A DNA stretch of 33,996 nucleotides from Bacteroidales bacterium (GTDB lineage Bacteria; Bacteroidota; Bacteroidia; Bacteroidales; UBA7960). Below are positions 4,194 to 24,835 of the stretch, piece by piece. Each line of letters starts with the position of its first letter. Position 1 is the first letter of the stretch. A program made the position numbers and the translations under genes. The notes under the pieces are model-generated. The model made no database searches, was not told the DNA's origin, and saw only the letters and a list, made by a program, of their open reading frames with translations. The stretch is taken from positions 1 through 33,996 of the forward strand of contig PWJC01000148.1 in NCBI GenBank assembly GCA_003560165.1. Reading direction: 5' to 3'.

Positions 4194-6659
4194 TCAGCGG
4201 ATGGAGGCGCCCAGTTCCTTTTCGTAGGCACGGCCAAGCCTGTCCATCACCCTGTCTGCCTCCGCATCGGTGAGGGTCCGTTCTTCGTTCAAAAAAACAT
4301 GGCTCACCGCATAGGATTTTTTGCCCGCTCCCAGTTTTGCCTCGTCTTCGTATACATCGAACAGCCCGACACGGCGAAGGTACTCTCCCCCATTAGCCAG
4401 GGCAATTTGTCTTACTGCGGCAAAACTCACTTCCTTATCGAGCAGCAAGGCCAGATCTCTCCGCATCTCGGGGAAGCGGGGAACTTCCTTTACTCTCAGA
4501 CCGGTACCGGCCGCCATCCCGGCAAGTACATCCCATTCGAGTCCGGCAAAAAATACGGGTTGCCTCAGACCAAAGCGCCTTGATAAACCTGCAGACAACA
4601 GGCCCAGGCTTCCCAGGGACTTTTCCCGGAAAGAAAGCCCGAGGCCGTATTCAAAAACAGGACCGGCGGTGATCTGATCGTGCGTCAGGTTGTGCCCGTC
4701 GATGCCCATGCGGTGGATGATGGCATTGACCGAGGCCTTCAGATCAAAAAAACCGGTTGCCGAATCCGTATCCTGCCAGCTTTCGGGTTGGCGACGGCCT
4801 GTAAGGAACAATGACAGCATCATGCGTTCGGCATAGGCAGACAGAGGATTCCTGGGATCTTCCCGGTGGGGGTCTTTGGCGTAAACATTTCCGAACTCAT
4901 AACACTTCATGTCGGCCACCTGTCGGTTCTGGTTATAGACAAGGGCCTCCAACCCGCCAAACAAAAGCGACTGCCGCATCACGTTGAGATCCTGGCTGAG
5001 CGGATTTACAATATCAACCGAACGGGATGCATCAAAACCAGGCCCCTGATAATAAGAAGCCCTGGTGAGTGAATTATTCATGATTTCGCGAAAGCCACGG
5101 GCCGAAAGCATGTCGGATACCAGGTTGCTCATCTGCTCTTTGTCGGGGCAGGGCAGGCTGACCATCGACGAATGCATTTTCGAAGGAATGTCCACCTGGT
5201 TGTAGCCGTAAATGCGCAGGATTTCCTCTGCCACATCAGCAGGCCTGGTTACATCTACCCTGTAGGCCGGAACACGCAGCCGCAGCAGGTCCTGACTTTC
5301 TTCCAGGAGGTGAAAATCGAGGTTAAACAGGATGTGCTTCATCTCCTGCACCGGGATATCCTGACCGATCAGCCGGCGAACCCCGGAAATGGACAGGTCG
5401 ACAAGGGCCGGTTCAATGGGGTCGGGATACACATCTAACACATCGGAGGCAATCCGTCCGCCTGCCACCTCCCTGATGAGGATGGCGGCCCTTTTCAGTG
5501 CAAAGAGGGTCATACCCAAATCGGCTCCGCGCTCAAAGCGGAAGGAGGCTTCTGTTTTCAACCCATGATGCCTCGACGACCTCCTGATGCTGACCGGATC
5601 AAAATAGGCACTTTCGAGGAAAACATCGGTGGTATCAGAGGTCACCCCGGATCCGGATCCACCCACGATGCCACCCATGCACATGGGTTCTTCTGCATTG
5701 CAGATCATCAGTTCATGGCCGGTAAGTTCCAGTTTCTGGTTCTCAAGGGTTTCAAACACCGTGCCTTTGGGTGGTTTTTTCACAACGACCCGGCCGCCCC
5801 TGATGGCTGCCGCATCAAAGGCATGCAGTGGCTGCCCCAGTTCATGCAGCACAAAATTTGTAACATCCACCACATTGTTTACGGGCTTCAGCCCCACCGA
5901 AAGCAGCCGCTTTTTCAGCCAGCCGGGCGACTCGCTTACGCTGACACCCCGGATGCTCAGGCTGGCATACCTGGGACAGGCCTGGGGGTCTTCAATTACA
6001 ACGGGAATTGAGAGGGTGTTTTCGTCGGGAGCAAAAGAGCCGGTTTCGGGCCAAAGGACACTGAGTTGTTGCCCGGCATGGCGGTGGTTGATCACGGCCA
6101 CAATGTCCCTGGCCACGCCCAGGTGAGAAGCGGCATCGATCCGGTTGGGCGTCAGCCCGATCTCATACACCCAATCTTCGCTCAGCTGAAAATATTCGGC
6201 GGCTGGCATACCGGCAGGGGTTTGCGGCGGCAGCACCATGATGCCCTGGTGGGAGTCGCCCAAGCCAAGTTCATCTTCTGCGCAGATCATGCCTTCGGAA
6301 AGCTGACCGCGTATCCTGGCCTTGTGGATCTTCAGTTCCCCCTTTGGTGTATAGAGGGTTGAGCCAACCAAGGCCACCACCACCTTTTGTCCGGCCGCAA
6401 CATTTGGGGCCCCACATACTATTGACAGGGGTTTGTCCTGCCCTGCGTCTACGGTGGTCAGAAAAAGCCTGTCGGCTTCCGGATGTCTTTCGCAGCTGAG
6501 CACCTGTGCGGTAACAACCCCCTGCAGCCCCCCCCTGACGGTTTCCCGCTTTTCCAGACCCTCTACCTCGAGGCCGCAATCGGTCAGCAGCGTTGCCAGT
6601 GAGTGGGGGTCGTGGGTGAAACCGGCGTATTCTTTTAACCAGTTATAGGATATCTGCAT
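4194..6659 (-). CDS. pheT: Phenylalanine--tRNA ligase beta subunit
   Basis: An 821-residue subunit of the cytoplasmic alpha2-beta2 enzyme that charges tRNA(Phe). The bacterial domain order is visible: MQISYNWLKEY start, an EMAP/OB-like tRNA-binding domain (about 40-150, with RHPEADRLFLTTVD and VCGAPNV), the B3/B4 region (about 215-395, VNNVVDVTNFVLHELGQPLHAFD), the B5 domain (about 405-480), a catalytic-like core (to about 700), and the C-terminal anticodon-binding FDX-ACB domain (FPEMRRDLALLLDKEVSFAAV to the end). Length is usual for the phylum. pheS is not in this window. The gene lies 40 bases downstream of the coiled-coil membrane protein on the same strand and may share its transcript. 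Confidence 0.97.
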   Translation of the reverse strand: MQISYNWLKEYAGFTHDPHSLATLLTDCGLEVEGLEKRETVRGGLQGVVTAQVLSCERHPEADRLFLTTVDAGQDKPLSIVCGAPNVAAGQKVVVALVGSTLYTPKGELKIHKARIRGQLSEGMICAEDELGLGDSHQGIMVLPPQTPAGMPAAEYFQLSEDWVYEIGLTPNRIDAASHLGVARDIVAVINHRHAGQQLSVLWPETGSFAPDENTLSIPVVIEDPQACPRYASLSIRGVSVSESPGWLKKRLLSVGLKPVNNVVDVTNFVLHELGQPLHAFDAAAIRGGRVVVKKPPKGTVFETLENQKLELTGHELMICNAEEPMCMGGIVGGSGSGVTSDTTDVFLESAYFDPVSIRRSSRHHGLKTEASFRFERGADLGMTLFALKRAAILIREVAGGRIASDVLDVYPDPIEPALVDLSISGVRRLIGQDIPVQEMKHILFNLDFHLLEESQDLLRLRVPAYRVDVTRPADVAEEILRIYGYNQVDIPSKMHSSMVSLPCPDKEQMSNLVSDMLSARGFREIMNNSLTRASYYQGPGFDASRSVDIVNPLSQDLNVMRQSLLFGGLEALVYNQNRQVADMKCYEFGNVYAKDPHREDPRNPLSAYAERMMLSLFLTGRRQPESWQDTDSATGFFDLKASVNAIIHRMGIDGHNLTHDQITAGPVFEYGLGLSFREKSLGSLGLLSAGLSRRFGLRQPVFFAGLEWDVLAGMAAGTGLRVKEVPRFPEMRRDLALLLDKEVSFAAVRQIALANGGEYLRRVGLFDVYEDEAKLGAGKKSYAVSHVFLNEERTLTDAEADRVMDRLGRAYEKELGASIR

Positions 6660-14907: not shown

Positions 14908-15879
14908 ATGAGCCTGAATGAAATAAAGGCACCCGTTGACGAACACATCAGGGTCTTTGAGGCCCGCTTCCGTGAGTCGATGAAAAGCAAGGTCCCCCTG
15001 CTGGACAAGATCACCCACTATATTGTGAAGCGCAAGGGGAAACAGATGCGGCCGCTGTTTGTGTTCTTTTCGGCAGGGGTGTTTGGAGAAATCGGCGACA
15101 GAACCTACCGGGCGGCCTCACTGATCGAATTGCTGCATACAGCCACCCTGATCCACGACGACGTGGTTGACGACTCAAACCAGAGGCGGGGCTTTTTCTC
15201 GTTGAACGCCCTGTGGAAAAACAAGATCTCCGTACTGGTGGGCGATTACCTGCTCTCGAGGGGGCTTTTGCTTTCGCTCGAAAACGACGACTTCGACCTG
15301 TTGAAGATCGTCGCCCACTCGGTAAAGGAGATGAGCGAAGGAGAACTGATGCAGATCGAGAAAGCCAGGAAGCTCGACATTGAAGAGGGGTTATATTTCG
15401 AGATCATCCGGAAAAAGACCGCCTCCCTGATCGCATCCTGCATGTCGTGCGGGGCTGCCTCGGCCGGTGCTTCTGAAAAGGAGATCGCCCTGATGCATGA
15501 GATCGGTGAGAAAGCGGGAATCGCTTTTCAGATAAAGGACGACATTTTCGATTTCGAGCGCGACAAGACCAAGGGCAAACCTTATGCATCAGACATCAGG
15601 GAGCAGAAGATGACCCTGCCATTGATCTACCTGATCAACACCTCGTCCTATGCAGAAAAGCGCACCATCATCAACACCGTAAAGAATCACAGCCATGATC
15701 AGGAGAAGGTGGCCGGACTGATCGACAAAGTGGTTGCCTCCGGCGGCATCAATTATGCGACCAGGCATATGCTGGCGTACAAAGAGCAGGCGATCGAAAG
15801 GCTGGGGAGGCTTCCTGATGTGCCGATGCGCGAATCCCTGTGTCAGCTCATTGAGTTCACGGTTGCCCGGGGCGCCTGA
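14908..15879 (+). CDS. Polyprenyl (octaprenyl-type) diphosphate synthase
   Basis: A 323-residue trans-prenyltransferase that lengthens allylic diphosphates with isopentenyl diphosphate, supplying the side chain of menaquinone. The first aspartate-rich motif is HDDVVDDS (Asp84, Asp85, Asp88) and the second is KDDIFDF (Asp211, Asp212, Asp215). GKQMRP and GDYLLSRG segments are conserved. The chosen start MSLNEIKAPV fits the family N-terminus and the promoter position; an upstream ATG at 14887 would add seven residues. The 3' end overlaps the 3' end of the convergent MscS-like gene by 23 bases. Chain length of the product is inferred, not seen. Confidence 0.92.
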   Translation: MSLNEIKAPVDEHIRVFEARFRESMKSKVPLLDKITHYIVKRKGKQMRPLFVFFSAGVFGEIGDRTYRAASLIELLHTATLIHDDVVDDSNQRRGFFSLNALWKNKISVLVGDYLLSRGLLLSLENDDFDLLKIVAHSVKEMSEGELMQIEKARKLDIEEGLYFEIIRKKTASLIASCMSCGAASAGASEKEIALMHEIGEKAGIAFQIKDDIFDFERDKTKGKPYASDIREQKMTLPLIYLINTSSYAEKRTIINTVKNHSHDQEKVAGLIDKVVASGGINYATRHMLAYKEQAIERLGRLPDVPMRESLCQLIEFTVARGA

Positions 15880-16606
15880 GGCTTTCCTGCTCACCTGGTG
15901 CTGGCCTCCATTTTCCCAGAAACTCCCGGATCTTGTCTTCCACCATCATGGCCTGTGTCCCCGAGTGGGTATGGAAGGTAGCCTCAAATACAAATCCCCC
16001 GCCCTGATCGCGGGTCAGTTGCAATTCGGGTGCCGGCTCAATGATCCACGGCAGTGACATCATGTGTTCGAAGGCGGCACGCCTGACCTGCCCGGGATGG
16101 ATATCCCGTGACAATTCCATCCTCAGGTGATGGGGAAGGCTGTCCTCGTCTTCGGGCGGAATGGACAACAGCACATTGCTCAGGCTGGAATAGGGGATGC
16201 GGATCTCTTCGCCCGACTCATTGATCACCATCAGGGAGCGCCCACCCAACCGCTGAATGCGCCCACTGGCAAAAGGGGTTTTGATGTGCTGTCCGGGCTT
16301 CAGGGATTTTTCCGTTCTCAGCAGCACCCCGGCCAGAAAATCGCGAAACACGAACCAGGAGATGCCGAATATCAGCAATACCGCCATGACGCCGGTAATC
16401 AAATCGTAATAGACCATGTTGCCGAACAATACCAGTGCCCCCCAAAAGGCATAGGTCACCCACACACCCAGTTCGAGCAGTGGCAATATCCGCCCCATTC
16501 CTGTTTTTAATGATTTCTTTCCGGGCAGGCTTCTGGACATCAAACACAGCAGGCGGAAGAAAACAAACAGCAACAAACCGGAAACAATGAATATCAGCAG
16601 GCTCAT
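15857..16606 (-). CDS. Small MscS-like mechanosensitive channel domain protein
   Basis: A 249-residue membrane protein. There are hydrophobic helices at about 1-20, 45-65 and 70-90, with FVFRDFLAGVLL at the place of the pore-lining helix end. An MscS-type beta domain follows at about 105-150 (LKPGQHIKTPFASGRIQRLGGRSLMVINESGEEIRIPYSSLSN), then a short alpha-beta C-terminal domain. It is smaller than typical MscS proteins, and the pore helix lacks the usual Gly/Ala-rich pattern, so gating function is uncertain. Its ATG overlaps the TGA of the upstream cotransporter-NTPase gene (ATGA), which implies translational coupling and a shared role, plausibly volume or ion homeostasis. Confidence 0.82.
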   Translation of the reverse strand: MSLLIFIVSGLLLFVFFRLLCLMSRSLPGKKSLKTGMGRILPLLELGVWVTYAFWGALVLFGNMVYYDLITGVMAVLLIFGISWFVFRDFLAGVLLRTEKSLKPGQHIKTPFASGRIQRLGGRSLMVINESGEEIRIPYSSLSNVLLSIPPEDEDSLPHHLRMELSRDIHPGQVRRAAFEHMMSLPWIIEPAPELQLTRDQGGGFVFEATFHTHSGTQAMMVEDKIREFLGKWRPAPGEQESLRRPGQP

Positions 16607-19600
16607 AGGCGTTTTCTCGTTTTGAGTTTATCTACCAGATACAAGTCGAGTCCGGGACGGATCGCGTAAATGCCTTCAAACTTCTCAATGACAACCCCCG
16701 CTCTCAGCAGGCCCTTCAATTCTGCCAGCACCTGATCGATCGGGGTTTCCAGGTTCCGGGCCAGTTTATCGGCCGACAAACGCCTGTTAACGATCAATTG
16801 CCTGACATAGAACATCTGTTCCTTTCCAAGGCGGTCGAACACATCAATGTCAGGCAGGCTGAGGCTTTCCATGACCAGGGTCTTGCCAGTTATTTTTTTT
16901 ACCGACGCCAGCCAGAGCATGGTGGCGGTACCAGGATTGCCATAGGAACGCTCAAACAAGGTGTTGAACAACCTGGCAAAGTCCCATGCGGTCATCCGGT
17001 CTTCTTCCCTGTTGTTGACCATCAGTTTCATGCCACCGGCATGGTGCCTCAGCAAGATCATTTTTTTGAGTTCACGGGCATCGAAGGGGTTGCAGTAAAC
17101 CGTAGTCAGGGCATAGCTTTTGATCCCGCACAACTGGTCAATCAGTTGAAGCGCATGGGTGTTCACGTTGATGATAAAAAGGCATTTATGGCCGAAACGG
17201 TCTATCAGATCCTGTATCAGGCGGACAACGGCATCTCCTCCCGGCCTGCGTTCCCACCACAGGCCCAGGTCCTGGATGATGATAACCTTTCCGGCAGGCA
17301 TGGCCCTGAACACATCGTCAAGGCTGGCATTCTGTGCATTCAGCGACTCCAGCAACTTGGAGGTGAACAGTTCCACATCGGCCGAACACCCCTGGGGTGC
17401 ACGCAGGGAATGGATCTGTTCGCGGCTAAACCTTTTCTCAGCCATTTTTTTTGACAGGCTCGACTTGCCCGAACTCCGCTCACCGGAGATGAGCAGCGCA
17501 CCGGGTATGCCGGCCTTAAAACGTGATATGGCCTGATCGCATTCGCTGATCTCCTCCGACATGCCCACCCAGAAGTCGTCGCCTGTTCCGGATTGCCCCG
17601 AAAAAAGTGAGAAATAATAAAACGGCAGGTCTTTGGTTACCCCGGGCCTGGGAGTCAGGGCATCCACAAAATCCAGCAGTTCCCTGTTCGAGTGGTGGCG
17701 GGCAAACTCTCCCTTTTCCACGTGGCTGATCCACAACTGACCTTCACTCTTTCTGTACAGCAGATCTACAAAACGTTTGCCGGTGGCCTCCCTGGCTTTT
17801 TCCCACTGTCTTCGAATCCGTCCGCCGAATTCTTTCTGATCGGCATTACGGGGCCGTTTCTTGACCGACATGCTGGTCTGGCCGATAATGGAGGAGGAAA
17901 GGGGCTCAAAGCCTTTGTTCAGTCCTGTTTCAAAACCCTTCTCCACCTCTGCCAACACCTCCCTGACGTGTTGCTTCTTCTCAACGATCTTTTTCCTGAA
18001 ATCGGTGATCAGCGCGATCTGCTGCTCCTGCCTGTGCGCCAGTTCGCCGGATTCGTCGTTTTTGCCCTCGTTGTCGAGGCTGAAATTAAGCAGCCGCACA
18101 AGGTCCCTGACCGAAGAAACGATGTCCTGCAGCCTGATCTCGGCACGCCGGGTTGTCTTGATCGACTGGTCGATGAGTTCGGCGCTGATATAATATTCGA
18201 TGGTTTTCCTGAAACTCACCACGATGCGGTCTGCCTCGGCAAAGGCCTCATCATGGATCTTTTCGCCCAACTGCCCGGGGCTTATCTCGAGGGTTTCGGG
18301 CATTTCTTTGACCACTCCCCCTATCTCAGCATAAAGCCCCTGATAGATTTCCGGCACGGGAACCCCTTTCAGGCCAGCGTGGTCAAGCCTCTCCGCCGCC
18401 GAAGGTGGCTGATGGCCCCTTGTTGAGATTTTTTCAGCAAATACATCAAACCTTTCGATTTGGCGAATCAGTTCCACCTCAAGGGTGGTGGCAAAATCGG
18501 CGTGATATTTCCTGATTTTGGCATGGAGCCTGCTTTTCAAAGCCAGGATGTGGAAATCGAGCATGACCTTGTTGACAAATAGCCCGAGATTCTTCTCCCA
18601 TAGGCCGGCAAACTGCCTGATATCTTCTGCCAGGGGAGGGTCTTCTTTAAAATAGGACGAAAAATTGCGACTGCTGATGTTCGCGCCGGTGCTTTCGAGG
18701 TAGTGACTGAATTGATGCAGCCTGCCCATCAGGCCTTCGTAAAGGCGGTTCCCAGCCTGGAAATAGAATTCCCGGTTCCCGGACTCGAGTACGCCTATTC
18801 TGGCGTTCAGGCGGTTGCGTTCCATTTTAATTCGCTCCAGGGCCTTTGAACTGCCTGAAGCATCGATGCGGATCTTTTCGATGAGCACATGCAATCCGGT
18901 CAGCATCTTTCTGACCTCCCCCATTTCAGAAAAGGAATGGAGGGCAAAGTCCCTCATCAGCTGATGCAAAAACTTCAACTGCTGATGGTAGAGGAAGTAG
19001 CGGGCAGAAGGGGTCACCCTCACCCTGTGTGTAACCGGTTTGCGGGTCAGGGTCGCCTCAATGATCCTGCGCACCTTATAAAGCTGGGTTCGGAAGCGAT
19101 CGTGCTTTTTTATACGGAGTTCACCGGGGGTAAGCTTGATGCGTAATTTCTCGGGCATGACATTGATCATGGCGCGCAACTCATCAAGAAAGGCCTCATT
19201 GGCGCCTTCCAAAACCTTCCTGTCATGTGCGATGCGCTCCTGCCTGATCAGCTCCACCAGCCGCTGCGAATAGAAGGAAAAGTCGTTGAGCAGCAAGAGC
19301 AGGGCCGAGGAGTGGTCGGCAGGGCTAACCTCATCGACGATCTTTTGCAATCTGCCCAATGTCCTGTCTGTCAATGTGCTGAGCGCTTCAAACAACTTTG
19401 AGTCCGATGTCCTTAGCCGGTCCAGGCCCTGTTCATAGTATTTCCGGGTAAACCGGCCGGCAGTCTGTCCGATGTTGTTTACCTCGCTGACAATGATCTC
19501 CCTGTCTGCAGGGATCGGTTGATTCAGCACTTCAGGATCGGGGCGTGTTTCGTCGGGCAAACCGGATTCGGGCTTATAAACCGGGGTTTCTGGCAGGCCG

Positions 19601-21816
19601 GCCTCTTCAAAGTTAGAGGAGGCTCCGATCAGCAGCGAAGTGCCGGCTGCATCCGTCAGGGCTTTGGCCCTTTCGATGCCGGCCGCTGCGTCCCTGGGGG
19701 TGATCTCGGGCAATTCCATGATGGTCAGATCGGCATCCCGCGATTCGGCAGCGATGATCTTTTCCTGGGGCAACTGCTCAACCCCATTGTTGATAACCTT
19801 TACCTCCGCCTGCATCCGGTTGTTGTCGAGAAGCTGCCTGACCAGGCTGTAAAGGGTGTCGGTGCGGGAGTTGTCGTTATTGATGATCAGTATCCTTAGC
19901 TCTGCCGTACGCCACTCGTGGCTGGATGTCAAAAAGCGCAACAGGGCCAGCGCAAGGGTAAGGCTGCGTCCATGACCCTTCCACCAGAGATTGATCTGTC
20001 GATAGTTGCCAAAACCCTTTTCCTTGTCGTAGCTCAAAAAAAGCCTGTTATAGTCCTGCCTTTTCAGATTGGCAAGCAGTGTGGAAAATTTTTCGGGATG
20101 CCGGGTGTTTCTGGCCCATCCCATGAGCACGGTATTAGGCTCAAACCCCGAAAACCCGTACACCCTCGATATGATATCGATGCCTTCGTAAATGTCTCTG
20201 CACAGGTGTTTCCTGGTAAAGGGCTCACTTCCGTTCTCTCTGCTGCCAGAGGGCATCGCCTGCTTCAGGCCGAAGAGTATGTCGCCCCCGGGCTGCTCGG
20301 TGAGTTCAAAATTGGTGAACACCCCCATTTTGCCCACCAGGGCCTTGCCCATGGCAACCAGATGGGGCCTGTGCTTTTCCCCCCCGCTAAACAGCATCAC
20401 GTTCGGACGCCAGTTTCGGCTCAGTTTACTTACCCGGTTGAGTTTGGCCAGACCAGTCTTTACCAGCGAAGACCAAACCCCCGACCAGGTATCGCCGGTT
20501 TGCAGGGTCAGCTCTTTTTTCTTCAGGTACAAAAACAGGGCAAACAACAAAACGGCAGCCACAATAAGGGCCAGAATATCCAGCTGTATCATCACCACGA
20601 TACAGGCAAGGGCCCCGACTATTCCCACCACGGGATGAATTCGGAAGGAAGGCCTGAAATCACTGCCGGCCCAGCTTTCGATCACATAGGTGATGTTCAG
20701 AAATCCATAGGTGATGATGAAAAAGATCGACACGATGCGTGCGATCACGTTCAGTTCGCCGATCAGTATGCCGGCCAGAGCAATCAAAAAGGTAATGATC
20801 AGTGCGTTGCGGGGTTCTTTCGAGGCCCCATAGCCTTTGGAAAAAAAGCCCGGCAGGATGCGGTCGATGGCCACTGCCTGCAATATGCGGGGGGCCCCGA
20901 GTATGCTGCCAAGGGCCGAAGAGAGGGTGGCGGCAAATACCCCGGCCGCCACAAGCTGCGGAACCCACGAGATAGTGAACAGCACCCCGGGATCGCCCAG
21001 CAACAGCTCTCTGTCAACGGTATAGGAAAAGAACAGGGCCAGGACAGTGTATATCAGTAAGCCAACCAATATGGCCATCATGGTGCCCAGCGGAATATCC
21101 CTGCGGGGGTTTTTCAGATCGCCCGACATGCTCACCCCGGTGTTGAACCCGGTAACTGCCGGAAAGAAAATGGCAAAAAGAACAATCCATGGCAATGCCC
21201 CCGAGGATGGCAGCCATGTGGGCTGAACCGGGGTGTAGGCATGATCGCCAATAAAAACAGACAATAGCGACAATGCCAGGGCGGCCATGATCAGGAATTG
21301 TATCCGGATGGCAAGAGAAGTGCTGATAAAGGTCACCGCAGCAACCAGCAGCAGGGTAATGGACCCGGTGATCCGTATCGATTGCAGGCTGAGGCCAAAC
21401 CCAAAATAGGACAAAAAGCTTTCGGCAAAACCGATCAGGTACAAGCTGATGCTGAATGAAAAAGCCATGAAAAGGGCAATTCCGAGGGTGCCCCCGATGG
21501 GCAGCCCGAGGCTGCGGGAGATCATGTAGTACGCCCCCCCTTTTTCCACTCGCTTGTCGGTGGCCAGCGAAGATATGCTCAAACCGGTGCTGATCGAAAT
21601 AATATGGGCTACCAGAATGATCCCCAGAGTGGCCCAAAGCCCTGCCTGCCCAACGATCCAGGGCAGGCGCAAAAACATGATCACACCAAGGATTGCCAGC
21701 AACGAGGGCGTAAACACCCCGCTGAAGGCACCGAATTTTTTAGCTTTTCCCACGGCATCCTGTTTTTTTCGACGGGCCGCAGCACAGGGGTCGGCTCTGC
21801 AGCTGCCCGCAGACAA
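16603..21816 (-). CDS. SLC12-like cation-chloride cotransporter fused to helical region, P-loop NTPase and winged helix
   Basis: A 1737-residue single frame. Residues about 27-432 match the cation-chloride cotransporter core of 12 helices: KFGAFSGVF, GVIMFLRLPWIVGQAG (TM1), KGGAYYMISRSLG, SLYLIGFAES (Tyr126 at the K+ site position), and TLSSALGS (Ser299/Ser300, as in Na+-coupled members). Residues about 465-740 match the SLC12 cytoplasmic domain (NWRPNVMLFSGGEKHRPHL). About 775-1350 is long, charged and helical, with no family I recognise. About 1425-1640 is a P-loop NTPase: Walker A GERSSGKS (1445-1452), Walker B VIIIQDLGLWWE (Asp1516). About 1660-1725 looks like a winged helix. It starts at TTG (21816), just after a TATCTTTG box; a GTG at 21753 is an alternative. 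The stop overlaps the MscS-like ATG. A regulatory NTPase for ion cotransport is inferred. Confidence 0.88.
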   Translation of the reverse strand: MSAGSCRADPCAAARRKKQDAVGKAKKFGAFSGVFTPSLLAILGVIMFLRLPWIVGQAGLWATLGIILVAHIISISTGLSISSLATDKRVEKGGAYYMISRSLGLPIGGTLGIALFMAFSFSISLYLIGFAESFLSYFGFGLSLQSIRITGSITLLLVAAVTFISTSLAIRIQFLIMAALALSLLSVFIGDHAYTPVQPTWLPSSGALPWIVLFAIFFPAVTGFNTGVSMSGDLKNPRRDIPLGTMMAILVGLLIYTVLALFFSYTVDRELLLGDPGVLFTISWVPQLVAAGVFAATLSSALGSILGAPRILQAVAIDRILPGFFSKGYGASKEPRNALIITFLIALAGILIGELNVIARIVSIFFIITYGFLNITYVIESWAGSDFRPSFRIHPVVGIVGALACIVVMIQLDILALIVAAVLLFALFLYLKKKELTLQTGDTWSGVWSSLVKTGLAKLNRVSKLSRNWRPNVMLFSGGEKHRPHLVAMGKALVGKMGVFTNFELTEQPGGDILFGLKQAMPSGSRENGSEPFTRKHLCRDIYEGIDIISRVYGFSGFEPNTVLMGWARNTRHPEKFSTLLANLKRQDYNRLFLSYDKEKGFGNYRQINLWWKGHGRSLTLALALLRFLTSSHEWRTAELRILIINNDNSRTDTLYSLVRQLLDNNRMQAEVKVINNGVEQLPQEKIIAAESRDADLTIMELPEITPRDAAAGIERAKALTDAAGTSLLIGASSNFEEAGLPETPVYKPESGLPDETRPDPEVLNQPIPADREIIVSEVNNIGQTAGRFTRKYYEQGLDRLRTSDSKLFEALSTLTDRTLGRLQKIVDEVSPADHSSALLLLLNDFSFYSQRLVELIRQERIAHDRKVLEGANEAFLDELRAMINVMPEKLRIKLTPGELRIKKHDRFRTQLYKVRRIIEATLTRKPVTHRVRVTPSARYFLYHQQLKFLHQLMRDFALHSFSEMGEVRKMLTGLHVLIEKIRIDASGSSKALERIKMERNRLNARIGVLESGNREFYFQAGNRLYEGLMGRLHQFSHYLESTGANISSRNFSSYFKEDPPLAEDIRQFAGLWEKNLGLFVNKVMLDFHILALKSRLHAKIRKYHADFATTLEVELIRQIERFDVFAEKISTRGHQPPSAAERLDHAGLKGVPVPEIYQGLYAEIGGVVKEMPETLEISPGQLGEKIHDEAFAEADRIVVSFRKTIEYYISAELIDQSIKTTRRAEIRLQDIVSSVRDLVRLLNFSLDNEGKNDESGELAHRQEQQIALITDFRKKIVEKKQHVREVLAEVEKGFETGLNKGFEPLSSSIIGQTSMSVKKRPRNADQKEFGGRIRRQWEKAREATGKRFVDLLYRKSEGQLWISHVEKGEFARHHSNRELLDFVDALTPRPGVTKDLPFYYFSLFSGQSGTGDDFWVGMSEEISECDQAISRFKAGIPGALLISGERSSGKSSLSKKMAEKRFSREQIHSLRAPQGCSADVELFTSKLLESLNAQNASLDDVFRAMPAGKVIIIQDLGLWWERRPGGDAVVRLIQDLIDRFGHKCLFIINVNTHALQLIDQLCGIKSYALTTVYCNPFDARELKKMILLRHHAGGMKLMVNNREEDRMTAWDFARLFNTLFERSYGNPGTATMLWLASVKKITGKTLVMESLSLPDIDVFDRLGKEQMFYVRQLIVNRRLSADKLARNLETPIDQVLAELKGLLRAGVVIEKFEGIYAIRPGLDLYLVDKLKTRKRL

Positions 21817-21829
21817 GAACTACAAGAAC

Positions 21830-21837
21830 CAAAGATA
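21830..21837 (-). promoter_or_regulatory. Bacteroidota -7 box, TATCTTTG, for the cotransporter operon
   Basis: An exact TAnnTTTG on the minus strand. Transcription would start near 21824, only some eight bases before the TTG start at 21816. No TTG at 19-20 bases upstream was seen. Confidence 0.5.
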
Positions 21838-21937: not shown

Positions 21938-23584
21938 ATGAAAAAGCTCCTGACGCTGACCGTATTTTTCCTGACCGGGCTGCTGCTGCCCCGGCATTCG
22001 CCTGCCCTCACCAACCAGCCAGCACCGCCACCACTCAACACCGAGCAGGAAAGCGCTGACCTGTCTACCCCCAGGAGGGCATTGCATACCCACCTGTACT
22101 TTTTGCAACCCCAGAGCTATGAGCCCCACAAGGCCGCCCAGGCCTTCAGGCACCCTGGGGTAAGCCTGGAAGAGGCTGCAGAATCGGCCATCCGGCTCAA
22201 ACAGGTATTTGACGGCAGGGGGTTGTTTATCGACGTGGAAGGGGCGCCGGATGAGCCGGATCATTTCGACACCCTCCGCCAGGAAAACATCTATGTGCCT
22301 GCCAAACCCCTGCCCGAAATATACCTCAGCAAACGCAACGGATTCTGGATGTACAGCCAGGAAAGCATCCGCGCGATCGACCGTTTGCACAGGGAGATCT
22401 ATCCTTTCGGTCCCGACCTGCTGATCGACCTCATACCCGCGGTCGGCAGCCGCACTTTTATGGGGCTTTACCTCTGGCAGCATCTGGGGATACTGCTGCT
22501 GATACTGCTGAGTTTTCTGCTGCACAAACTGCTTACGTTTATGTTCAGCAAGATGCTATATAAGGGAGCAAACCGCATGGGCTACGACCGCCTGGTGCGG
22601 CCCTATCTCCTTCCGGTGGCCAGACCGCTTAGCCTTTTCATGGTGTTTGTGTTCGTCATGGTGATGTTTCCGCTGCTGCAACTGCCAGTCGAAATGGGGA
22701 GGTATTTCGTATTTGCCTTCCGTGCCATCCTGCCATTTTTCGCCACCCTGGTGTTCTACAAGCTGGTGGATGTATTTGCCCTCTATCTCGAAAAGCTGGC
22801 CGGACAAAAGGAATCCAGCCTCGAAAACCATGTCGTTCCCCTTATACGGAAGGTATTGCATGTATTCGTCGTCCTTGTTGGCGGATTGTTCATTCTGGCA
22901 AATCTGGATGTCAATATCACCGCCCTGCTGGCGGGTCTGTCCATAGGCGGGTTGGCCCTGGCCCTGGCCGCCCAGGACACCCTGAAAAACTTCTTTGGTT
23001 CCCTGATGATATTTGTCGACAAGCCCTTCTCGGTCGGGCACTGGATCAGCAGCGGGGAAGTCGACGGCACGGTAGAGGAGGTCGGTTTCCGCTCAACCCG
23101 CATCCGCACATTCCGCAACTCCCTGACCTATATACCCAACGGGAAACTCGCCGATTCGACCATCGACAACCACGGCCTCAGACAATTCAGGCGTTTCTTT
23201 ATGCACATTTCCGTCACCTACGACACCCCCCCCGACCTCATCGAGGTCTTTGTCAAGGGCCTGCGGCGGATCGTGGAATCCCACCCCCTGACCCGGAAGG
23301 ATTTCTATATTGTCGAGTTCAACGAAATGGGCAACTTTTCGCTCAACATCATGTTCTATATCTTTTTTGCCGTCCCCACCTGGCCCGAAGAGCTGCGCGC
23401 CCGCCATGAGGTGCTCATTGAGATCGTCCGTCTGGCCGAAAAGCTGGGGGTACGCTTTGCCTTTCCCACCAGCACCCTGCATATGGAGAATTTTCCGGGG
23501 AAGCACAGCCTGACCCCACGGTACGACTTAAACATGGAGGATTTCAAACAGGTGATGGACGAGTATTTCGAAGCCAAAGCCTGA
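21938..23584 (+). CDS. MscS-family mechanosensitive ion channel with periplasmic N-terminal domain
   Basis: A 548-residue inner-membrane channel. An N-terminal signal sequence (MKKLLTLTVFFLTGLLLP) leads into an extracytoplasmic domain (about 25-170), then about four membrane helices (about 175-205, 225-245, 255-280, 300-335). The pore-lining region GLSIGGLALALAAQDTLKNFFGSLMIFVDKP (about 330-362) has the Gly/Ala packing pattern of MscS TM3. It is followed by the beta domain (VDGTVEEVGFRSTRIRTFRNSLTYIPNGKLADSTIDN) and the C-terminal alpha-beta domain. Expected role: opening under membrane tension to release solutes in hypo-osmotic shock. It is divergent from the cotransporter/MscS-like operon. 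Confidence 0.94.
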   Translation: MKKLLTLTVFFLTGLLLPRHSPALTNQPAPPPLNTEQESADLSTPRRALHTHLYFLQPQSYEPHKAAQAFRHPGVSLEEAAESAIRLKQVFDGRGLFIDVEGAPDEPDHFDTLRQENIYVPAKPLPEIYLSKRNGFWMYSQESIRAIDRLHREIYPFGPDLLIDLIPAVGSRTFMGLYLWQHLGILLLILLSFLLHKLLTFMFSKMLYKGANRMGYDRLVRPYLLPVARPLSLFMVFVFVMVMFPLLQLPVEMGRYFVFAFRAILPFFATLVFYKLVDVFALYLEKLAGQKESSLENHVVPLIRKVLHVFVVLVGGLFILANLDVNITALLAGLSIGGLALALAAQDTLKNFFGSLMIFVDKPFSVGHWISSGEVDGTVEEVGFRSTRIRTFRNSLTYIPNGKLADSTIDNHGLRQFRRFFMHISVTYDTPPDLIEVFVKGLRRIVESHPLTRKDFYIVEFNEMGNFSLNIMFYIFFAVPTWPEELRARHEVLIEIVRLAEKLGVRFAFPTSTLHMENFPGKHSLTPRYDLNMEDFKQVMDEYFEAKA

Positions 23585-23656: not shown

Positions 23657-24448
23657 TTATTTCAAAACCAGGACTGCGGCCGGGTCGATCACCTGGAAAG
23701 TGAACGACTCTGTAAAGTACAACTGGACGGTTTTATTGTTGTGCGACTCATATCCGATGGAGATGTCCTGTCCCAACACCAGGCGGAAGTCCCCGCCCCG
23801 TTCCGAAACCATGTAGGCATCCTTGATGTAGGGGGCCATGATGATGCTGCCGCCCAACAGGTTCTCCAGTTGCTTGCGCAGGGGGTAACCCCTGACAAAA
23901 GAGTTCACCCTCTGCCATTTTTCGGTATTCAGCACCAGGGAATAGGGTCCTTCGACCGAAGCGGTTTTCATTTTTGATACGGCCGTTGAAACCGCTCCCA
24001 GGATCTCCTCCCCCTCTTCGGGAAAGGGGATCGCGGCATAATCGGAGCTGTTTTTCAGGCCTGCGATGTTGGCCTGTTTAAAGCCTTCATAAATGGCCCT
24101 TTCCTCAAATCTGGCGATTTCCCGTGCCGCATCCTCCAGGGCATCCAGGTCGATGTCCTCGGCTCCGCGGACCACATTGTCCAGTTCCCAGATATTGAGC
24201 TCAAAAGGCACCCTGGCCTCCACAAGCGGCAATACCCGGAAGGTGCCGAACTTTACAGGTCCTTTCTGATTTGCCGGAACATCGATGCGGCCCGTCGAAA
24301 GGGCGGCATAATCCCATCCTCTGGGACCTTCCACATCCAGGAACTTCCTGGCCGATAGCACAGACGACAGGACATCCACAGCCGTTTCATTGATTTCTTC
24401 CCATGCTTCCTTTGAGATGGGTGCCAGCGATTTTCTTAAAATATCCAT
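23657..24448 (-). CDS. Family 1 encapsulin shell protein
   Basis: A 263-residue HK97-fold shell protein. Family 1 members of this size form a 60-subunit T=1 nanocompartment of about 24 nm in the cytoplasm. The N-terminus MDILRKSLAPISKEAWEEINE and the segments DVEGPRGWDYAALSTGR, ELNIWELDNVVRGAEDIDLDALEDAA, FEERAIYEGF and the C-terminal QLYFTESFTFQVIDPAAVLVL are all typical, and length matches Thermotoga-type shells. The ATG at 24448 is preceded by a strong AAAGGAGG site. It follows the encapsulated ferritin gene after 12 bases in the same operon, so iron storage is the expected role. Confidence 0.96.
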   Translation of the reverse strand: MDILRKSLAPISKEAWEEINETAVDVLSSVLSARKFLDVEGPRGWDYAALSTGRIDVPANQKGPVKFGTFRVLPLVEARVPFELNIWELDNVVRGAEDIDLDALEDAAREIARFEERAIYEGFKQANIAGLKNSSDYAAIPFPEEGEEILGAVSTAVSKMKTASVEGPYSLVLNTEKWQRVNSFVRGYPLRKQLENLLGGSIIMAPYIKDAYMVSERGGDFRLVLGQDISIGYESHNNKTVQLYFTESFTFQVIDPAAVLVLK

Positions 24449-24454
24449 GGTTTT

Positions 24455-24462
24455 CCTCCTTT
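24455..24462 (-). promoter_or_regulatory. Strong Shine-Dalgarno AAAGGAGG for encapsulin
   Basis: A near-perfect anti-16S match six bases before the encapsulin ATG, overlapping the TAA stop of the ferritin-like gene. It stands out because most genes here have weak or no such site. It may serve to translate shell protein in excess over cargo. Confidence 0.75.
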
Positions 24463-24835
24463 ATTTTTTGATTTTTCCAATATCCAGTGAATCTCCACCC
24501 TTAGCGGGAACTGATCCGCCATGACCCCCGTCATGATCACCCTGATCGTGGCCATGGACTCCCATGATATCGCCTTCCTTGAACAGCCAGTGACGCAATT
24601 CTTCGTCCCAGCCAGGCATGTTCCGCCTGAGCCACTCCAGGGTCATGCAGGCGTGTTCTATCTCCTCATCGCGGTTGTGGGCCATGATAGCGGCCAGTTC
24701 CGGATCGCCGGAGGTGACCACGCGCTGGTGATACCAGTCGACGGCCTCAATCTCTTCCTTTAAACTGTTCAGGGCACGTGAAAAATTGCGGGCCTCCTGT
24801 GATAACTCTCCTACTGGTTCGTGGTAATTTGACAT
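24461..24835 (-). CDS. Encapsulated ferritin-like cargo protein (EncFtn)
   Basis: A 124-residue two-helix ferritin-like protein, a ferroxidase that oxidises Fe(II) inside the encapsulin shell. Against the Rhodospirillum rubrum numbering I recall, every key residue is found with a constant offset of four: Glu28, Trp34, Tyr35, Glu58 and His61 (ferroxidase centre), plus Glu27 and Glu30 (entry site). A Gly/His/Asp-rich linker (about 92-107) leads to the tail SLDIGKIKK, which resembles the C-terminal cargo-loading peptide of encapsulin clients (SLxIGxLK-like). It is the first gene of the operon, 12 bases before the shell gene, with a promoter at 24946-24977. Confidence 0.95.
   Translation of the reverse strand: MSNYHEPVGELSQEARNFSRALNSLKEEIEAVDWYHQRVVTSGDPELAAIMAHNRDEEIEHACMTLEWLRRNMPGWDEELRHWLFKEGDIMGVHGHDQGDHDGGHGGSVPAKGGDSLDIGKIKK

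Follow-up and report, generated by a model that had tools for sequence, protein, structure and literature searches.

What links the activity of a salt cotransporter to the volume of its cell has been asked for a long time, and in animals the answer has been traced to cascades of kinases. The question arises again with contig PWJC01000148.1 of a Bacteroidales bacterium (assembly GCA_003560165.1), whose 33,996 nucleotides are referred to here as the window. One of its genes encodes a cation-chloride cotransporter (CCC) that continues into a large module with an AAA+ domain, and the gene that overlaps its end encodes a protein related to the MscS channel. What does such a module do on a cotransporter? 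Our reading, to which we assign a probability of about 0.5, is that this is a cotransporter of the Na-K-Cl type, and that the built-in nucleotide-binding module would set its activity together with the MscS-derived partner.

The fusion gene and its start

A preliminary description, made from the DNA letters alone, had reported a single reading frame of 1737 codons at 16603-21816; the frame is present and lies on the minus strand, with many stops on the plus strand across the same interval. The TTG at 21816 that opens it is probably not the true start: in BLAST matches, homologous chains begin at residue 22 of the frame, which is the GTG at 21753, and this likelier start would yield a protein of about 1716 residues. 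In addition, TATCTTTG at 21830-21837 on the minus strand, upstream of the gene, resembles the Bacteroidota -7 element; were the TTG the start, hardly any leader would precede it, which favours the GTG. The parts of the system are as follows.

16603-21816, minus strand: open frame of the fusion, 1737 codons (first codon TTG at 21816; GTG at 21753 is the likelier start)
19597-21753, minus strand: SLC12/NKCC-like cotransporter, residues 22-740 (Pfam and NCBIfam, PDB matches, nine-sequence alignment A2)
within 19597-21753, minus strand: transmembrane part, residues ~34-433, and usual cytoplasmic domain, residues ~434-740
17872-19551, minus strand: helical region, residues ~756-1315, about 560 residues (AlphaFold2, AF2, model)
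17686-17871, minus strand: disordered linker, residues ~1316-1377 (low predicted local distance difference test, pLDDT)
16606-17685, minus strand: ORC/Cdc6-like AAA+ domain with C-terminal winged helix, residues ~1378-1737 (AF2, fold searches, PDB profile)
17461-17484, minus strand: Walker A, GERSSGKS, residues 1445-1452
17263-17283, minus strand: Walker B-like, IIIQDLG, residues 1512-1518
17044-17049, minus strand: Arg1590-His1591
15857-16606, minus strand: MscS-like partner, 249 residues, overlapping the fusion stop by 4 bases (PF00924, AF2)

The cotransporter half

The first 740 residues had been read as an SLC12-type cotransporter with the serine pair of the Na+ site visible, and both observations were borne out. 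Residues 34-433 matched AA_permease (2.3e-42, 145.7 bits, cut-off 24.6), the chain matched the K-Cl cotransporter model TIGR00930 (3.8e-114, 382.8 bits, below the model cut-off of 953.4), and PDB profile matches to NKCC1 and KCC structures spanned both the membrane and the cytoplasmic parts (best 7smp, NKCC1, E 9.7e-74). The SLC12 C-terminal family PF03522 reached only 18 bits, with a cut-off of 27, which counts against membership. The segment ATLSSAL is identical in NKCC1 in a pairwise alignment, whereas KCC4 has STCGAGL there, and both serines, S278 and S279, are invariant in alignment A2 of nine divergent fusions. Also invariant among these nine are Y105, P198, T201 and Y349 (A2 numbering), which presumably map to the K+ and Cl- sites in NKCC1. 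Judged by sequence, the transporter half is classed as an SLC12 cotransporter, of the NKCC/NCC rather than the KCC type by its Na+-site Ser-Ser.

The AAA+ module

Residues 741-1737 were modelled with AF2 on a 60-sequence alignment, with a mean pLDDT of 82.5 and a predicted template modelling score of 0.53, so that the domains themselves are confident while their mutual arrangement is not. The longest helices of the helical region run for 47-74 residues, with mostly short turns between them. In a Foldseek search with the whole model the best match was ORC (E 2e-6), and with VIA-align it was Aeropyrum pernix ORC2 (Z 16.0, 325 residues, root-mean-square deviation (rmsd) 5.5); Cdc6, TnsC and MuB were also matched. 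The C-terminal NTPase fold with a winged-helix-like end that had been predicted from the letters is thus present in the model, as an ORC-like AAA+ domain with a winged helix. AAA+ matches filled the list of the whole-model search, and no new fold is claimed for the helical region. Profile searches were less specific: the C-terminal profile gave only weak winged-helix and helical matches in the PDB, those of the winged-helix part being to transcription regulators (best 0.0021), Pfam gave only AAA-type matches below cut-off (AAA_16/nSTAND-like) and NCBIfam gave none for the window's module. The module forms a family in its own right.

Conservation of the nucleotide site was counted after rows with fewer than 250 domain residues had been dropped, the split genes L120 and L133 being counted with the CCC fusions. 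The Walker A lysine, Lys1451 in the window, is kept in 68/68 CCC fusions and 6/6 fusions to CPA-type antiporters (74/74 fused proteins), and in 36 of 62 stand-alone modules. Arg1590 and His1591 are both present in all 68 CCC fusions, and the Arg in all 62 stand-alone modules. At the Walker B-like site, 60 of the 68 CCC fusions have N, H or Q where the first acid would stand, and 67 keep the Asp after it. Nucleotide binding by the AAA+ domain is therefore probable from the conserved residues and hydrolysis uncertain; given the altered Walker B, we claim an AAA+ fold, not an active ATPase. What speaks for a nucleotide-dependent switch, as proposed earlier, is conservation, that of the invariant lysine.

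Distribution of the fusion

A transporter-domain scan of genome contigs confirmed 285 relatives, of which the best 80 were all examined: 64 carried the full fusion, 9 were cut by contig ends, 3 were split (L100, L120, L133) and 4 were unfused cotransporters. The query had a strong match in 19 of 20 genomes of the same genus and in 13 of 14 others of the same family; in many of them it is a single unbroken frame of about 1700 residues, in others it is cut by contig ends, and in one (G032) it contains a stop. Desulfoluna limicola (L135) encodes the same chain on a complete chromosome, and it is present in Flexithrix dorotheae DSM 6795 as well as in Fulvivirga marina. The examined loci bear the labels Bacteroidota, Ignavibacteriota, Rhodothermota, Calditrichota, Latescibacterota, Thermodesulfobacteriota and SAR324, with Pseudomonadota-labelled metagenome-assembled genomes in addition. 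Among the isolate names, many point to soda-lake sediments. An assembly join or frame artefact has next to no chance of explaining the chain: the window genome is a 184-contig assembly and a few relatives are split or interrupted, but the full chain in 64 of the 80 loci, one of them on a complete chromosome, rules this out. The search for the same domain order thus showed the fusion of cotransporter and NTPase-type domain to be real, as first described, with no hidden join.

In the transporter tree the four unfused cotransporters group as a single clade (support 100) that lies within the fused proteins, which suggests one loss; this tree and the AAA+ tree described below were quick builds without a mixture model. 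A genome search found the module in 0/4 of their genomes (completeness not stated), and the flanking stretches examined held no MscS-like gene. That these cotransporters lack module and partner alike supports a link between the two.

A second, distant group of cotransporters of about 740 residues without the module, at 28-29% identity, occurs in genomes of the same order (L070:3235-5457, L071:4322-6550, L072:6863-9079).

The MscS-like partner

The partner is laid out as three N-terminal helices, a beta domain and an alpha/beta domain. It matched PF00924 (30 bits, cut-off 20.2), and its AF2 model (pLDDT 91.2) aligned with the MscS structure 6pwn (VIA-align Z 11.5, 231 residues, rmsd 10.0). The window genome, of 2.7 Mb, has only 6 MscS-domain places, and two of them flank the fusion gene.

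Pairing of module and partner was counted with MscS-like defined as a match to either of two hidden Markov models (HMMs) built for this analysis, and copies of module genes were merged only when their last 60 residues were identical. An MscS-like gene stands directly downstream in 63 of the 64 full fusions, beside the module in 29/29 loci of a second, overlapping set, and adjacent in 36/40 loci of a third overlapping set by the gene list, or 38/40 after re-scanning. The simple gene caller hides overlapping frames, so all frames were re-scanned at eight loci; this recovered the ATPase frame at L031 and, next to the module, an MscS frame at each of L068, L069, L191 and L192. Altogether, 131 of 137 distinct module genes have a same-strand MscS-like gene beside them (127 by gene list plus 4 re-scanned frames); the other six are L111 and L139 (111-residue remnants), L100 (broken), L201, L223 (contig start) and L054. 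Independently of our HMMs, 57 of 58 CCC-fusion partners matched PF00924 at E <= 0.01. The near-constant neighbourhood suggests that the regulator probably comprises at least two proteins, a point absent from the preliminary description.

At one re-scanned locus the arrangement is more intricate: the 5' part of a 1540-residue module frame (L191:4160-8782) overlaps the MscS frame at 4224-5387, and a 1392-residue frame before the module frame had no Pfam match.

In the partners of fused modules the pore appears to have decayed. In the window partner the Gly/Ala pattern of the pore helix TM3a is gone, and since this helix is not Gly/Ala-rich we do not file the protein as a working channel. The mean Gly+Ala fraction of TM3a is 0.42 in stand-alone partners (n=60), 0.19 in CCC partners (n=62) and 0.12 in CPA partners (n=6). 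Furthermore, at L111, L119, L139 and L149 (Fulvivirga/Flammeovirgaceae) the partner is a piece of 111-116 residues without membrane helices that resembles the C-terminal MscS domain, the remnant at L111 having no match to our HMMs. The simplest reading of these sequences is that fusion made the transporter, in place of the MscS pore, the working output, and that the cytoplasmic domain would have kept its job with the ATPase.

The module in other contexts

The module was found in 67 of 394 genomes of the phylum in a search with the C-terminal part alone, and in 80 of 392 in a search with a 23-row AAA+ alignment. Besides CCC fusions, there are stand-alone modules paired with a canonical MscS, modules fused to CPA2-type antiporters and modules that have a separate antiporter as neighbour. 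The antiporter-module proteins number seven, or six once those identical over the last 60 residues are merged, are about 1500 residues long and carry the antiporter domain in front. PF00999 was matched in L064 (1.1e-18) and L184 (1.2e-18), and L064 also matched the CPA2 model TIGR00932 (2.7e-8, below the model cut-off); no PF00999 match was present in L065 in the Pfam scan, and this and the remaining antiporter fusions were assigned with an HMM built from L064 and L065. The fusion gene is followed by an MscS-like gene and then by TrkH and TrkA. TrkH was confirmed in L064, L184 and L187, and TrkA in L184; at L065, L185, L186 and L202 the corresponding positions are taken by genes of matching size. 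Another arrangement, at L066, L067 and L201, is module, small membrane gene and separate PF00999 antiporter, and L069 has module, MscS-like frame, TrkH and TrkA. The transporters directly linked to the module thus move monovalent cations; stand-alone module-MscS pairs were not systematically searched for linked transporters.

In the AAA+ tree, which left out 19 of 149 rows, all CCC fusions, the CPA fusions group together (support 99), as do the CCC fusions, which with the two split genes make up 52 rows (support 98). With separate groups for the two, the fusions look independent.

A proposed mechanism and its alternatives

The near-constant MscS pairing, the NKCC-like Ser-Ser, the ORC-like fold and the decay of the pore with retention of the Walker lysine together support a role in volume control. 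The cytoplasmic cage of MscS reportedly senses crowding, by the title of Rowe 2014. This title, and the crowding sensing of WNK kinases (PMC11876703), underlie our proposal of an osmotic signal. The MscS-like protein would report the osmotic state, through crowding at its cytoplasmic domain or, where helices remain, through membrane tension; alternatively, it may act as a docking ring. According to its nucleotide state, the AAA+ domain would pass the signal along the helical region and so promote or restrain the entry of salt; the nature of the signal, the way it runs and the cycling of nucleotide are all inferred here. With a canonical MscS alone, the module presumably controls the channel; fused to a CCC or CPA2 transporter it would control the transporter, the MscS pore having decayed. 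More broadly, and more tentatively, the module may be an undescribed but widespread bacterial device for volume control, an ORC-like AAA+ protein obligately coupled to MscS-type subunits, originally a channel controller, that was plugged into transporters at least twice independently (CCC and CPA2), its partner's pore decaying while the sensing cage was kept. It would then be a single-operon, kinase-free counterpart of the WNK-NKCC system.

Several observations weigh against this proposal. The counts derive from related, and hence non-independent, sequences. The module at L054 has no adjacent MscS gene, a radical SAM gene being next to it; L201 has a 185-residue membrane protein without assignment where the MscS-like gene is expected; and the partners at L066 and L067 are MscS-like by our HMM only (1.7e-6 and 5.6e-8), not above the Pfam cut-off. 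The TM3a Gly+Ala ranges of stand-alone (0.14-0.64) and CCC (0.00-0.50) partners overlap. That some partners have no membrane helices counts against tension sensing as a mechanism shared by all, and the winged helix might bind to DNA. In addition, the Walker B site lacks the hhhhDE acid pair for hydrolysis, which, with the Walker lysine lost in 26 of 62 stand-alone modules, means that ATP turnover is perhaps not general.

Some of these same features would fit a factor for assembly or scaffolding, in which the AAA+ domain and an MscS-like ring cluster or stabilise the transporters, or the MscS oligomer, with no osmotic response. The 111-116-residue remnants would suit a docking domain, and an incomplete Walker B and the lysines lost from stand-alone modules are also in its favour; however, the lysine and the Arg-His pair in all 68 fusions argue for a nucleotide-dependent state, and the companions are osmolyte-ion systems, so that we consider this explanation unlikely, though worth keeping in view. 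We regard it as improbable that the ORC-like AAA+ domain and winged helix make the transporter an osmo-sensing, membrane-tethered transcription regulator. The fold does match ORC/Cdc6, TnsC and MuB, and the winged helix has its weak matches to transcription regulators, yet what almost always accompanies the module in the genome is an MscS-like gene, and in ATPases of this sort the winged helix also mediates contacts between proteins. Very improbable, finally, is a role in defence, as a STAND-type ATPase that kills through a membrane channel, with the fusion to the cotransporter as a side use. An ATPase with a membrane effector is a common defence layout, and the sub-threshold AAA_16/nSTAND-like matches point the same way, but a PADLOC scan of four proteins gave only weak local matches (best 3.2e-4), none credible, the companions are K+/Na+ transporters, and inheritance in 19 of 20 same-genus genomes is that of a core gene. 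On balance we retain control of the cotransporter by the module and its MscS-derived partner as the working explanation.

Neighbouring genes

Upstream of the fusion gene and divergent from it lies the second MscS-domain gene.

21938-23584, plus strand: canonical MscS channel, 548 residues

A divergent MscS-like gene also lies upstream in L077, L080, L113 and L127. Beyond it in the window are an encapsulin shell gene (23657-24448, minus strand; Linocin_M18, 5.7e-87) and, beside that, a gene for EncFtn-like ferritin cargo (24461-24835, minus strand; 1.4e-40).

Comparison with known systems

We recognised no treatment of a CCC-AAA+ fusion or an MscS-AAA+ pair in the open-licence PubMed Central text searched. 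The preliminary description knew of no cotransporter with a built-in NTPase; a P-loop AAA+ domain within the chain is indeed new, as far as that text shows, whereas nucleotide binding as such was already known, the C-terminal domain of animal CCCs binding ATP/ADP through a universal-stress-protein-like fold in the excerpted text of PMC8280820. The notion that animal cotransporters have no nucleotide sites was dropped on the same excerpt, and nucleotide sensing is thus not foreign to the family. A prokaryotic CCC with a C-terminal domain is also found in Methanosarcina acetivorans (Warmuth 2009, as described in PMC4301019); the excerpted description gives that domain a mixed alpha/beta fold with two subdomains and does not mention an AAA+ module.

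With ORC/Cdc6 and TnsC/MuB the module shares the AAA+ core and winged helix, and differs in its ion-transport context and altered Walker B. The partner shares the fold of MscS channels and differs by a pore helix without the Gly/Ala pattern and, in four cases, by having no membrane helices. The cytoplasmic domain of MscS binds FtsZ, according to an extract of PMC4440785, and our data suggest that MscS-type proteins can be subunits of ion-transport regulators, besides being release valves. Since two overlapping genes encode transporter, putative nucleotide switch and MscS-derived subunit, the coupling lends itself to experiments on purified proteins.

A further parallel is with the animal NKCC/NCC/KCC proteins (SLC12, TIGR00930), with which the alignment covers the transporter and a large part of the cytoplasmic domain and whose member NKCC1 has the same Ser-Ser, the bacterial chain differing by about 1000 extra residues with the AAA+ domain. 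Animal cotransporters are controlled by separate WNK/SPAK kinases, of which the WNK kinases sense crowding and activate NKCC1, in the excerpted text of PMC11876703. By analogy, the fusion and its partner would be a bacterial counterpart, reached by a different route, of the crowding-sensing WNK control of animal NKCC and KCC.

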